Shown here piece by piece: positions 1 to 6,521 of a DNA stretch of 64,000 nucleotides. How positions within the stretch are numbered: position 1 is the stretch's first letter; every line of letters begins with the position of its first letter. The position numbers and the translations under genes were made by a program. This DNA comes from Cyanobacteria bacterium QS_8_64_29 (GTDB lineage: Bacteria; Cyanobacteriota; Cyanobacteriia; Cyanobacteriales; Rubidibacteraceae): positions 1 to 64,000 of the forward strand of contig PXQH01000001.1 of assembly GCA_003022125.1 (NCBI GenBank), written 5' to 3'. Under the pieces are notes generated by a model. That model did not search any database. It saw only the letters and a list, made by a program, of their open reading frames with translations, and was not told the DNA's origin.

Positions 1-661
1 ACTCCGAGGGCGATCGGGTAGCCAACCCGCGCTACCTGCAGCGTTCGGAGCGAAAGCTAAAACGGCTCAATCGGCGGGTTCACAAAAAGCCTAAAGGCTC
101 TAACAACCGCCGTAAGGCGGTCAACCGGCTAGGCCGCCAGCACCTTAAGGTTCAGCGCCAGCGTCAAGACTTCGCCGTCAAGCAGGCGAGGTGCGTGGTG
201 ACATCGGCAGATGTCGTGGCGTTTGAGGCTTTGAACGTGCGCGGCTTGGTCCGCAACCGTCACTTGGCCAAGTCCATCTCGGATGCGGCTTGGTCGCAGT
301 TCGCGCGCTGGTTGCAGTATTTCGGGCAGGTTTTCGGCAAGGTGGTTATGGCGGTCCCACCGCAATACACCAGCCAGGACTGCTCAGCCTGTGGGGCGCG
401 GGTCTCCAAGACCCTAAGTACCCGAACCCACCAGTGTCCGAGCTGCGGCACGACCTTGGACCGCGATGAAAACGCAGCCCTTAACATCTTGCAGCAAGGG
501 CTGCGACAAGCAGGTGCAGATGCAACTAGGGCCGGGCAGGCCCGAAGTCACGCTTTGGGAGAGGAGACCGCTACGCCGCTCGGTGAGAGCCGGGCGGCGC
601 AAGTTTTGTCGCCGAACCAAGAATCCGCTAGCTCAGCCACTGGCGGCTAGCGGAGTGTCAA
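1..661 (+). mobile_element. Right part of an IS200/IS605-family element
   Basis: The window opens inside the element: the TnpB reading frame is already open at base 3. The right end is recognisable by a GC-rich hairpin (CCGCTAGC at 625-632 paired with GCTAGCGG at 646-653, 13-nt loop) preceded by GAAT and followed by AGTGTCAA at 654-661, the usual layout of IS605-type right ends, which carry subterminal hairpins instead of inverted repeats. No TnpA (Y1 transposase) is visible, but it could lie left of the window. The element abuts the 3' end of the MFS transporter remnant on the opposite strand. An omegaRNA normally overlaps the tnpB 3' end and right end; its presence here is inferred only. 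Confidence 0.8.
3..650 (+). CDS. tnpB: TnpB, RNA-guided nuclease of an IS200/IS605-type element (5' end outside window)
   Basis: Partial protein, 215 residues visible. Family members are omegaRNA-guided RuvC nucleases that help retain IS200/IS605 elements. The fragment starts with the basic helical stretch following the first RuvC segment (SEGDRVANPRYLQRSERK). The second RuvC acid lies in VAFEALNVRG (codon at about 225), the four-cysteine zinc finger has CSAC and CPSC pairs, and the third RuvC acid is in LDRDENAALNIL. The first RuvC aspartate would be upstream, outside the window. The visible frame has no interruption, so this could be a functional copy. The stop codon TAG (648-650) sits in the 3' arm of the right-end hairpin. 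Confidence 0.9.
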   Translation, partial: SEGDRVANPRYLQRSERKLKRLNRRVHKKPKGSNNRRKAVNRLGRQHLKVQRQRQDFAVKQARCVVTSADVVAFEALNVRGLVRNRHLAKSISDAAWSQFARWLQYFGQVFGKVVMAVPPQYTSQDCSACGARVSKTLSTRTHQCPSCGTTLDRDENAALNILQQGLRQAGADATRAGQARSHALGEETATPLGESRAAQVLSPNQESASSATGG

Positions 662-1951
662 CGGACCACGCCATCGGCCCTATAGGGCGACAGGCGCGGC
701 AGGGCAAGCGCCAGCAGCAGCGGCGGGACGGCTGACAGCACCAGGATGGGAACGTAGCTTCCGAACGCCTCAAACCCGAGCGCGAACAGGTACGGTCCGG
801 CGGTGGTCGCCGCGACCGAGACAGTCGTTGCCCAGCCTTTGATTTCACCCAGAGCCGTCCGTCCGAAATAGTGCGCGTACGCGCTTCCTTGAATTACCCC
901 CTTCATGCCCTGTGCCAGACCGGAGACGGTTCCGTAGGCCCACATCCAGGCCAAGCTCGTGGTATAGACCGGAAGCACCAGCGAGACGCACAACAGCAGC
1001 AGCATGAGGGCGAGGAGCCAGCGCGGCTCGACGCGGTCCATGGCGTAGCCCGTAGCAGATTGGCGCCAGCGCTGACAATGCCCAGGGGCGCAAACACGGC
1101 AACCGCCGTTTCGGCATTCAGACCGCCCGTTTGCTGCATGATGTCGAAGTGGTGGAAGGTCAAGCCCGTGGCCAGCGCCGAGACAAACGCATCGCCCAGC
1201 GTGAACGCCCAAAACACCAGGCTGCGGCGGGCTTGGGCAGCTGTGTAGTGAGCTTCGCCATCTGAGGTGGCAGCGCTGTCCCCAGCAGGGGAGGGCGCGA
1301 GTTGCAGGCCAAACAGCTCCGGCGATCCCCGAAACAGCAGCGCGCCGACGGGCAAAATGGTGGCAGCAACCGCTACCCCCAACAGGCGGTAAGCTTGGCG
1401 CCAGCCCACCTGGCTGATGAGCGCTTCAATGCCGCGCGGCAAAACGGCAATGCCAATGGCAAAGCCCAAACTGGCAATGCCCACTGCCAAACCGCGGCGC
1501 CGGCGAAACCAAATGTTGATGGCGTGCAGGCTGACCAGCGTGAGGGCGCCTTGGCCCAGTCCGCGAACGAGCAAAAAGCCCAACGTTAGCGCGAGCAGGC
1601 CGCCCACCCAGCTCATGCCGGCGCACGCGATCGCCAAGCCCGCCGAGACCAGCGTCACAGTCGGCCGGGGCCCAAAGTGATCGGTAAAGCGCCCGACAAA
1701 AAGCGCCCGACAAAGGGTAGGGCCAAGGACCCACCCAGCGTCCCCAGGGCGTAGGCCAACGACACTTGCGATCGCGGCAGCCCCAGATCGGCCACAATGC
1801 GATCAACAAAAACCGACACCCCCACTGTCTGGCCGGGGGTGGTCATAATCGTTCCTAACGTGCCCGCCAGCAGCACGATCCAGCCGTAGTAAATCGGCGA
1901 TCGCGCCACCAGTGGGCTGTAGAGCGAGCGGGAACGAGGCAATTCGGTCAA
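658..1951 (-). pseudogene. MFS transporter, broken by two frameshifts and truncated by an IS end
   Basis: Three reading-frame pieces together give a 12-helix major facilitator protein resembling oxalate/formate- or monocarboxylate-type carriers (N-terminus PIYYGWIVLLAGTLGTIMT). The first piece starts at 1951 and ends in a wrong frame at about 1655. Removing one copy of a 14-bp tandem duplication at about 1687-1714 restores VGRFTDHFGPRPTVTLVSA across the junction. A second shift near 1053-1058 looks like loss of one G: restoring it joins SAGANL to TGYAMDRVEPRW. The last piece ends at a TGA (658-660) whose bases belong to the right end of the neighbouring IS element, so the original C-terminus is lost. 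The protein is almost certainly not made. Substrate unknown. Confidence 0.85.
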
Positions 1952-2729: not shown

Positions 2730-3620
2730 ATGGCAGCAGTACCGCAGCTGAGCGAGCGCCTGCAGGCGTGGTACCGCAACGGCAGCTACTTTTCCTTCCA
2801 AGGCGATCGCTGGTTCTATCGCGAGGCGGGGGATGGGCCGCCTTTGCTGTTGCTGCACGGCTACCCCACGGCCTCCTGGGGCTTTCACAAGGTATGGCCT
2901 CGCCTGACGCAGCGGTTCCGCGCGATCGCGCCGGACTTGTTGGGGTCGGGCTTTTCCGACAAACCGCTAGGCGGTCGTTACGACATTGCCTCCCTAGCCG
3001 ATGGCGTGGAGGCGCTGTTGCAAGCGCGAGGCGTCCGAGCGCCCCATGTGCTGGCCCACGCCTACGGCGTCACGACCGCGCAAGAGTTGTTGGCGCGCCA
3101 CTTGGCCGGCGGCGGGCTGCCGCTGCGCTCGGTCTGCTTTGTCAACGGCGGCCTGTTCCCGGAGGGATCGCACCCCACGCCCTTGCAGCGGTTGCTCATG
3201 ACGCCGCCCGGTCGCCTCATTGCCCGCTGGGGACCGACGCCGTTTCGCACCTTTAGCCGCAAGCTGGCGCGCAACTTCGGCCAACCGCCCAGCGAGGCCG
3301 AGCTGCGCGAGCTGTGGCAGTTGCTGCGGTTTAACGGCGGCGATCGCGTGGTCCCGGAGGTGCTGCAATACCTCAAGGAGCGCTACGCTCAGCGCGAGCG
3401 GTGGGTAGGCGCGCTCGCGCAGGCTGACATTCCGCTGCGGCTGATCAACGGTGCTGCAGATCCGGTATCGGGGACCGACATCCCGCGCCTGTGGCAGCAA
3501 ACCGTGCCCAATGCGGACCTCGTCCAGCTCGACCCGGGCATTGGGCACTATCCACCGCTAGAAGACCCAGAGGGAACGCTCGCGGCGTTTTTGGCGTTCG
3601 TTGACGCTATCGAGGCGTAG
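2730..3620 (+). CDS. MEST-like alpha/beta hydrolase with substituted nucleophile
   Basis: 296 residues, an alpha/beta-hydrolase fold protein. Long segments match the mesoderm-specific transcript (MEST) subfamily as I remember it: GSGFSDKP, a QELLAR helix after the nucleophile elbow, FVNGGLFPE, RRWVGAL-like RERWVGALAQ, and GHYPPLEDPEG. In that subfamily the nucleophile elbow reads SHDYG or AHDYG, with Asp as nucleophile. Here it reads AHAYG: residue 111 is Ala (codon GCC at 3060). The other triad candidates are present (Asp244 in AADPVSG, His273 in GIGHYPP). The protein is therefore likely to be catalytically impaired or non-enzymatic unless another residue substitutes. Its 3' end overlaps the convergent gene at 3607 by 14 bp. 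Physiological substrate unknown. Confidence 0.85.
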   Translation: MAAVPQLSERLQAWYRNGSYFSFQGDRWFYREAGDGPPLLLLHGYPTASWGFHKVWPRLTQRFRAIAPDLLGSGFSDKPLGGRYDIASLADGVEALLQARGVRAPHVLAHAYGVTTAQELLARHLAGGGLPLRSVCFVNGGLFPEGSHPTPLQRLLMTPPGRLIARWGPTPFRTFSRKLARNFGQPPSEAELRELWQLLRFNGGDRVVPEVLQYLKERYAQRERWVGALAQADIPLRLINGAADPVSGTDIPRLWQQTVPNADLVQLDPGIGHYPPLEDPEGTLAAFLAFVDAIEA

Positions 3621-4926: not shown

Positions 4927-5310
4927 CTTGGCACTCCTTAAGCCTGCGCCTTGGCAACCCTACCGCGATGGCGCTTGTGCAAGGCGACCCCTGCAGAAGC
5001 GCGATGGGGGAACTTGGGGAGCAGATGGCTGCTTTCCGCTCGTGCTGCCGCCCGAGCGGCTCGCTCGTTATCAAAATGATAACGCTTTGGCGCCCCCGAT
5101 CCCAACCGGTCGCCGAGACCACTTCAGCAGTCAACGCGCCGCAGCGCGCCCGGCGCGACCGATTTTAAGGTTTTTAACACTTAGGGCGCTGTGGCTTTGG
5201 ATTTCGTTTAGGTTCAACGGATTAACGCAGTGGCGCCCAGCCATTCTGGATAGGCTGATCGGCACTAGCTTTAGCGCGCGGGTGAGGGCCCTTGGCGCCC
5301 CCATGTGGCT
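4927..5310. other. Intergenic region between rpaB and the 5311 gene
   Basis: About 380 bp separate the divergent starts of rpaB and the small ribbon-helix-helix-like gene. It contains the 19-bp palindrome annotated separately and an AT-rich patch at about 5160-5185 (GGTTTTTAACACTTAGG) that may hold a promoter for either side. I find no convincing coding frame or RNA gene in it. Confidence 0.5.
5066..5084. promoter_or_regulatory. Perfect 8-3-8 palindrome, candidate operator
   Basis: CGTTATCA-AAA-TGATAACG is an exact inverted repeat with 8-bp arms in an otherwise GC-rich intergenic region, about 140 bp upstream of the rpaB start and 230 bp upstream of the 5311 gene. Its size and symmetry suit a dimeric transcription factor. 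It resembles Fur-superfamily boxes only loosely (the half-sites face the other way from TGATAAT-type repeats). Its regulator is not identifiable by eye. Confidence 0.45.
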
Positions 5311-5595
5311 ATGGCCAATCCGTTCCTTGGCGTCAGAATTCCGCCCGAGCTGGAGGGCGCGATCGCGGATCGCATGGCCGAAACGGGCGAGTCCAAATCC
5401 GCCATTGTGGTGGCCGCCCTGCAAGCCTATTTGGGAACGGCGCCCTGCCGGGAGCGCTTGAGCGCGATCGAGCAGCGGCTGAGTGAGGTAGAGGCCTTGG
5501 CCGCCGAGATTAAGCAACTGCAAGAGCACCAACAGCCGCCGCCATCCCACCCACACCGCGAAGGCGGCAAGGCAGAACGGTCGCATTGCCCTTAG
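5311..5595 (+). CDS. Small ribbon-helix-helix-like protein with coiled-coil tail
   Basis: 94 residues from ATG 5311 (a GTG at 5305 in the same frame would add two). Residues 1-45 (ANPFLGVRIPPELEGAI, then GESKSAIVVAALQAYLG) look like a CopG/Arc-type ribbon-helix-helix: a short strand with alternating hydrophobics, then two helices. The rest is a heptad-like helix (RLSAIEQRLSEVEALAAEIKQL) and a Pro/His-rich tail. Such proteins usually bind DNA as dimers, as small autoregulators or antitoxins, but no toxin partner is adjacent. It lies just upstream of truB on the same strand and ends 23 bp before the truB start. Confidence 0.65.
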   Translation: MANPFLGVRIPPELEGAIADRMAETGESKSAIVVAALQAYLGTAPCRERLSAIEQRLSEVEALAAEIKQLQEHQQPPPSHPHREGGKAERSHCP

Positions 5596-5618
5596 GATCG
5601 CGATCGCGCGATGGGGCG

Positions 5619-6521
5619 ATGGGAGCGTTGCTCGGATTTGCCAATCTCAACAAGCCCGCCGGGGTCAGCTCGCACGATTGCATCAACCGGGTACGGCGCA
5701 GCCTGGGCATCAAGCGCGTCGGGCACGGGGGCACCCTGGATCCGCTGGCGACGGGCGTCCTGCCGGTTGCCGTCGGGCGGGCAACCCGGCTGTTGCGCTT
5801 TTTGCCCGAAGGCAAAGCCTATCGCGCCACGATCCGGCTGGGGGTGCGCACGGCAACGGACGACCTGGAAGGGGAGGCGCTCGAGCGCCAGCCCGTGCCT
5901 GCCCTCGATGCCGAGACCATCGCCGCTACGCTCGCCCGTTCTGAAGGCGAGATCGCGCAGCAACCGCCGGCCTACAGTGCCATCAAGCAGCACGGCAAGC
6001 GCGCTTACGAGCTGGCCCGAGCCGGCCAGGCCGTGGCCATCCCCGCGCGCACCGTGCGCCTGGATCGGATCCGGTTGCTGGATTGGCGGGTTGCGCCCCA
6101 GCCCGAGCTCAAGGTTGCCATTGACTGCGGCCCTGGCACCTACGTGCGCGCGCTCGCGCGGGATGTGGGCGCGGCCCTGGGAACGGTGGGAACGCTAGCC
6201 GCGCTCGTGCGCACTGCCAGTTGCGGCTTTGAGCTGGAACAGAGCGTACCGCCCGAGCAGCTCGAGCGCCAAGCAAGCGAAGGCAGCGTGGCGCTGGTGC
6301 CGCCCGAGCGGGGCCTGGCTCACTTGGCAGCCGTGGTTTTGCCATCGCGCGAGGCCCGGCGCTGGTGCCAGGGGCAAACGCTGGCCCAGCCAGCCTCCAT
6401 CGGCCAGCCCGGCGCGTTCGTCCGGGTGCAGGATGAGGGGGGAGGGCTGCTGGGCATTGGCAAGCTGGCCGCAGCGGAGACGCTGCTGCTCAAACCGGAG
6501 GTCGTGCTGGCCCCGGGCTAA
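5619..6521 (+). CDS. truB: tRNA pseudouridine(55) synthase TruB
   Basis: 300 residues. It converts U55 in the T-loop of tRNAs to pseudouridine. The catalytic motif HGGTLDPLATGVLPV contains the nucleophile Asp41. KAYRATIRLGVRTATDD, PPAYSAIKQHGKRAYELAR and CGPGTYVRALARDVG are the standard TruB blocks. A C-terminal PUA-like segment (about residues 235-295) completes the family length. I chose ATG 5619 because the longer frame from TTG 5586 overlaps the upstream gene and adds nothing conserved. Confidence 0.95.
   Translation: MGALLGFANLNKPAGVSSHDCINRVRRSLGIKRVGHGGTLDPLATGVLPVAVGRATRLLRFLPEGKAYRATIRLGVRTATDDLEGEALERQPVPALDAETIAATLARSEGEIAQQPPAYSAIKQHGKRAYELARAGQAVAIPARTVRLDRIRLLDWRVAPQPELKVAIDCGPGTYVRALARDVGAALGTVGTLAALVRTASCGFELEQSVPPEQLERQASEGSVALVPPERGLAHLAAVVLPSREARRWCQGQTLAQPASIGQPGAFVRVQDEGGGLLGIGKLAAAETLLLKPEVVLAPG

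Follow-up and report, generated by a model that had tools for sequence, protein, structure and literature searches.

The window (the whole 64,000-nucleotide stretch of DNA analysed, from contig C1 of the cyanobacterial genome G000) encodes a MEST-like alpha/beta hydrolase in which alanine stands in place of the aspartate nucleophile. Comparison of the sequences identifies this Ala elbow as a clade character that is inherited and under purifying selection; the His-Asp dyad is retained. We have hardly any doubt that the Ala form is a conserved functional clade. For this nucleophile-free clade, labelled Ala-MEST here, we propose, with confidence evenly balanced for and against, that it travels with hopanoid metabolism and takes part in it, where it would make use of the old pocket. 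Hopanoids are bacterial equivalents of sterols. What looks like a loss of function is in this way recast as a change of function under selection, and the reaction of the family's mammalian member, MEST, is itself not established; one paper states that little is known of the catalytic function of MEST (PMC5481029).

The window gene and its active site

The 296-residue frame (2730-3620, forward strand) is translated with no internal stop; its start codon was inferred, and the frame stays open further upstream. The relevant features are listed below, where the Asp core denotes 33 aligned Asp-form rows, from which L050, L042 and L039 (29-31% identical) were kept out.

2730..3620, + strand: Ala-form MEST-like alpha/beta hydrolase gene, 296 aa (PF00561 match; 39-row alignment)
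2856..2882, + strand: HGxP motif, H43-G-Y-P-T-A-S-W-G51, with Gly at 51 (Asp in 32/32 filled Asp-core rows)
2994..2996, + strand: Leu89 (Gln in 33/33 Asp-core rows)
3048..3101, + strand: 18-residue elbow VLAHAYGVTTAQELLARH, the same in all three Ala-form proteins
3060..3062, + strand: Ala111 (GCC), replacing the Asp nucleophile (sequence and alignment)
3075..3077, + strand: Thr116 (Val in 33/33 Asp-core rows)
3459..3461, + strand: Asp244, triad acid
3546..3548, + strand: His273, triad base

The alpha/beta hydrolase fold was indicated by a match to Pfam Abhydrolase_1 (PF00561) of 74.2 bits against a curated cut-off of 25.8, and in the 39-row alignment of MEST-like proteins the window protein exhibited full-length similarity and the family blocks NGGxFPE, RWVGAL and HYPxxE. 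It is 42% identical over 307 aligned columns to a working version of the human MEST/PEG1 (mesoderm specific transcript) sequence, and the two have the HGxP, elbow, NGGxFPE, RWVGAL, DPV and HYPxLEDP blocks in common. Positions 3051-3068, however, read CTG GCC CAC GCC TAC GGC (L-A-H-A-Y-G), and Ala111 takes the place of the Asp nucleophile of the family's HDYG elbow, which is Asp147 in that human sequence. Haloalkane/fluoroacetate dehalogenases and soluble epoxide hydrolases were among the best sequence matches with solved structures; the window protein differs from them in lacking their defining Asp nucleophile, the residue that forms the ester intermediate in epoxide hydrolases and haloalkane dehalogenases.

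The loss of the Asp nucleophile, as claimed in an earlier sequence-only reading, was confirmed, since the codon at 3060-3062 specifies Ala and, of the 39 rows, 35 have Asp at the nucleophile position, three Ala (window protein included) and one Gly. The other triad residues, which that reading described as intact, are indeed kept (Asp244 and His273 in 39/39 rows). A further set of 30 loci, fetched and inspected out of 56 matches, gave 29 Asp and one Ala, the latter being once more the gene of G1147, one of the three Ala genomes. By matching of genome handles, 8 of the 29 Asp genes were repeats of genes already counted, so that 54 distinct Asp-form genes (33 of the Asp core plus 21) were inspected in the closer set, all of them with Asp.

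It is very improbable that the elbow was misread or that the nucleophile has moved elsewhere in the protein. The Ala trio shares three hydroxyl-bearing residues, Y45, S73 and T116, which in most Asp forms are F, F and V, and this lends the idea weak support, but the elbow aligns gap-free to the 35 Asp rows and to Asp147 of the human protein. The sequence-only reading had allowed for an alignment that puts the nucleophile at another place, and none was obtained.

The same reading attributed the substitution to one base change. As far as this codon goes that is correct, but the Ala clade has also lost the otherwise invariant Asp-form residue at several further columns. All three Ala proteins have the replacements D51G, Q89L, D111A, V116T and V283T, of which the last four lie in columns fixed in 33/33 Asp-core rows and the first in a column fixed in 32/32 filled rows. 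G51, L89 and T116 correspond to D84, Q123 and V152 of human MEST, and at 51, 89, 111 and 116 the Asp-form residue equals the human one (working sequence). On the other hand, of the 69 columns conserved to at least 90% in the Asp core, the three Ala proteins all retain the core residue at 56. Because the replaced columns are fixed in the Asp core, and Asp244 and His273 are kept throughout, the alignment indicates that the covalent nucleophile is lost together with the residues accompanying it, and that the rest of the site is kept. Structure prediction, put forward earlier as a check, yielded an AlphaFold model of the Ala-form protein (from two sequences) with a pLDDT of 49.9, too poor to judge the pocket; the pocket argument is accordingly one of sequence.

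Two neighbours of the gene were observed in passing. The contig starts with a fragment (window 1-650) of what we take to be a TnpB-like transposon protein, and next to it lies a presumed MFS-type transporter gene (658-1940, reverse strand) that seems to lie in pieces in different frames (ORFs 658-1212, 903-1658 and 1426-1809), which may reflect frameshifts or sequence errors.

Distribution and age of the Ala form

A scan of a one-genome-per-species collection revealed an Ala-form protein with the same elbow, 67% identical to the window protein, in a Gammaproteobacteria MAG, G415 (L031, without about its first nine residues, where the contig ends). A MEST-like gene was found at E ≤ 1e-30 in 26 of 398 genomes of the phylum of G415, and the closest after G415 was that of G1147 (L051), which is 59% identical (blastp) and likewise has the Ala elbow. 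Among 151 genomes drawn from the family of G1147 the gene was present at E ≤ 1e-50 in G1147 only, and among 386 genomes of the window's own phylum the window protein had a match at E ≤ 1e-20 only in G000, a genome that psaA and psaB mark as cyanobacterial; the many-genome searches scored the best few candidates per genome only (six, for example, in the 386-genome search). Viral contigs contained no relatives of the window protein, and the 665 matches in plasmid records were all below 60% identity, with 32.2% the best among the matches listed.

Two candidate relationships were rejected. An Asp paralogue retained beside the Ala form is contradicted by the single MEST-like match per Ala genome at the thresholds used (E ≤ 1e-20 in G000, 1e-14 in G415 and 1e-30 in G1147). 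QGF-type and HDWG-type cyanobacterial hydrolases were dismissed as orthologues, being 24-44% identical where inspected, partly over short stretches. The cyanobacterial hydrolases with a QGF nucleophile elbow (L002, L005, L007, L008, L010, L012 and L018) are apparently another nucleophile-free group in the same order.

That the Ala form might be a lineage had been suggested as a matter for alignment, and the trees bear it out. The three Ala rows fall on one side of a branch with support of 100/99 in a 35-row tree (L073, L050, L042 and L039 excluded) from which 14 diagnostic columns had been removed, and they also group together at 100/100 among 38 rows with all columns kept (only the fragment L073 excluded).

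Over the whole protein the trio agrees at 147 of 281 positions, while the elbow VLAHAYGVTTAQELLARH is identical in G000, G415 and G1147. Every pair of Ala-form genes nevertheless differs at 10 of the 18 elbow codons, all silently and with no amino-acid change, and four-fold sites over the whole gene differ at 73/122, 66/101 and 70/105 in the pairwise comparisons. The view that the window gene is a recent null or a decaying gene in this cyanobacterium could appeal to the GCC codon being one base from GAC, and to the G000 gene being unlinked to the hopanoid cluster (see below), but its frame is intact and both the Ala and the elbow recur in two other genomes with silent changes only, and we regard it as next to impossible. 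A sequencing error or fresh null was rejected for the same recurrence, and the 'early null' offered by the sequence-only reading does not survive the finding of the Ala form in three genomes of two phyla. Because the same elbow occurs in distant genomes with silent codon changes, in one clade and with further shared replacements, the Ala form is an old, selected lineage and not a fresh mutation.

The gene has likely spread laterally, and reached this cyanobacterium by that route, since it was found only in G1147 of the 151 family genomes and only in G000 of the 386 phylum genomes. The octamer GCGATCGC, which we take to be HIP1, typical of cyanobacteria, has three copies in the window gene and none in the other two Ala genes, suggesting a long residence; across the window it is frequent, with 55 copies.

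Hopanoid genes in the Ala genomes

In G1147 the Ala-MEST gene (L076:9190-10149, + strand) starts 157 bases from a divergent HpnG-like gene, whose score of 149.7 bits is below the cut-off of 187.1, and on its other side faces an HpnH gene (535 bits, cut-off 225), so that it lies between the two. Around them are genes for HpnL (272 bits, cut-off 195.65), an HpnA-like epimerase (328 bits, under the cut-off of 367.65), HpnN (931 bits, cut-off 751.85), IPP isomerase and HMG-CoA reductase/mevalonate kinase. The last two activities are fused in one 749-aa frame (L076 11981-14230) of this proteobacterial mevalonate/hopanoid cluster. In G415 the gene that Ala-MEST faces codes for HpnL (229 bits, cut-off 195.65), and another contig carries SHC, an HpnG-like gene (174 bits, under the curated cut-off of 187.1), HpnH, an HpnM-like gene and an HpnN homologue. 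G000 has SHC, HpnB, HpnA, HpnH, a PNP_UDP_1-type nucleosidase and squalene/phytoene synthase on contig C43, whereas its Ala-MEST gene is on C1; tblastn with ten G1147 proteins detected no hopanoid gene in the window or the 20 kb of C1 that follow it (L123). The genomic company of Ala-MEST thus comprises HpnA, HpnB, HpnG, HpnH, HpnL, HpnN and SHC, adjacent in G1147 and G415 and in the same genome in G000, and the linkage comes from two of the three genomes with an Ala-form gene known here.

Across 37 genomes, HpnH above the cut-off was present in 3/3 Ala genomes versus 0/34 genomes with other MEST-like genes (exact probability 1/7770), and in 2/2 versus 0/34 when G000, which as a cyanobacterium may owe its HpnH to ancestry, is left aside. 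Three Asp-form neighbourhoods (L078-L080) gave no hopanoid-protein match beyond the MEST-like gene itself. We consider the hopanoid link probable. Ala-MEST could instead have an enzymatic or regulatory role that has nothing to do with hopanoids, with the neighbourhoods and the HpnH co-occurrence as accidents of three genomes; the unlinked gene in G000, the small sample (n=3) and the possibility of passengers in lateral transfer fit this account, but two separate hopanoid neighbourhoods of different arrangement and the HpnH pattern make it unlikely.

A PF13469 sulfotransferase gene is found in all three Ala genomes:

L121 (G000 contig C43), 8699-9853
L076 (G1147), 5014-6183
L126 (G415), about 1480-2616

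The three proteins are about 50-52% identical. Their genes adjoin an HpnA-like gene in G1147 and G415 and lie in the same hopanoid cluster in G000; a sulfotransferase gene also adjoins an HpnA-like gene in another cyanobacterium, G025 (L128). This position suggests sulfated hopanoids, a subject that none of the papers listed by a literature search evidently addresses. The sulfotransferase occurred in 3/3 Ala genomes, 0/32 Asp-form genomes and 6/45 cyanobacteria that showed no close Ala-MEST relative. It had been considered as an obligate partner of Ala-MEST, but the last figure shows that it is not exclusive to the Ala genomes.

Possible function of Ala-MEST

If Ala-MEST works in hopanoid metabolism, a hopanoid or hopanoid side-chain intermediate would be bound in the old substrate pocket. 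No covalent Asp-ester intermediate of the kind found in epoxide hydrolases and dehalogenases would form, and His273-Asp244 could serve as general base in a non-covalent step, such as water activation, elimination or isomerisation. We put such a general-base enzyme forward tentatively, and judge a pure binding role to be nearly as likely.

A true pseudoenzyme is a possibility to be taken seriously: it would act as a hopanoid or lipid carrier, a chaperone or a sensor with no chemistry, and His and Asp could have been kept for the sake of the fold. The elbow position offers no nucleophile, D51 and Q89, invariant in the Asp core, have disappeared as well, and the membrane proteins HpnL and HpnN are among the neighbours; yet His273-Asp244 and HGxP are kept in all three proteins, beyond the need of a pure binder. 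The binding role raised in the sequence-only reading is possible. GID1, NDRG and the neuroligins are nucleophile- or triad-defective alpha/beta hydrolase proteins that combine a broken triad with a conserved role; to our knowledge none of them belongs to the MEST family. None of the papers listed by a literature search on nucleophile-free hydrolase-fold pseudoenzymes evidently concerned this type of protein.

The enzyme that turns ribosylhopane into bacteriohopanetetrol is described as not established in one paper (PMC12583986), and Ala-MEST is a candidate protein for a hopanoid pathway with an unassigned step. It is unlikely to catalyse that step in general, because it occurs in 1/386 genomes of the phylum, and is better accounted for as an accessory or tailoring protein. 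In its most specific and rather doubtful form, our proposal is that Ala-MEST is an unrecognised tailoring enzyme of the C35 hopanoid side chain, which would use the His-Asp dyad and no covalent nucleophile on a substrate derived from adenosyl- or ribosyl-hopane, perhaps together with the PF13469 sulfotransferase, to give an undescribed and possibly sulfated hopanoid. Searches of open-licence full-text literature linked no alpha/beta hydrolase to hopanoid biosynthesis or hopanoid genes, and a nucleophile-free subfamily inside the MEST-like hydrolases with a hopanoid context, likewise not found there, is what is new here.

Taken as a pair, the Ala and Asp clades provide a natural test of which residues go with the covalent Asp mechanism. 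Outside the Ala clade, the single Gly at the nucleophile column belongs to L050 (G703), a 31% identical protein whose elbow reads QGIG; the Asp nucleophile seems to have been lost there a second time.
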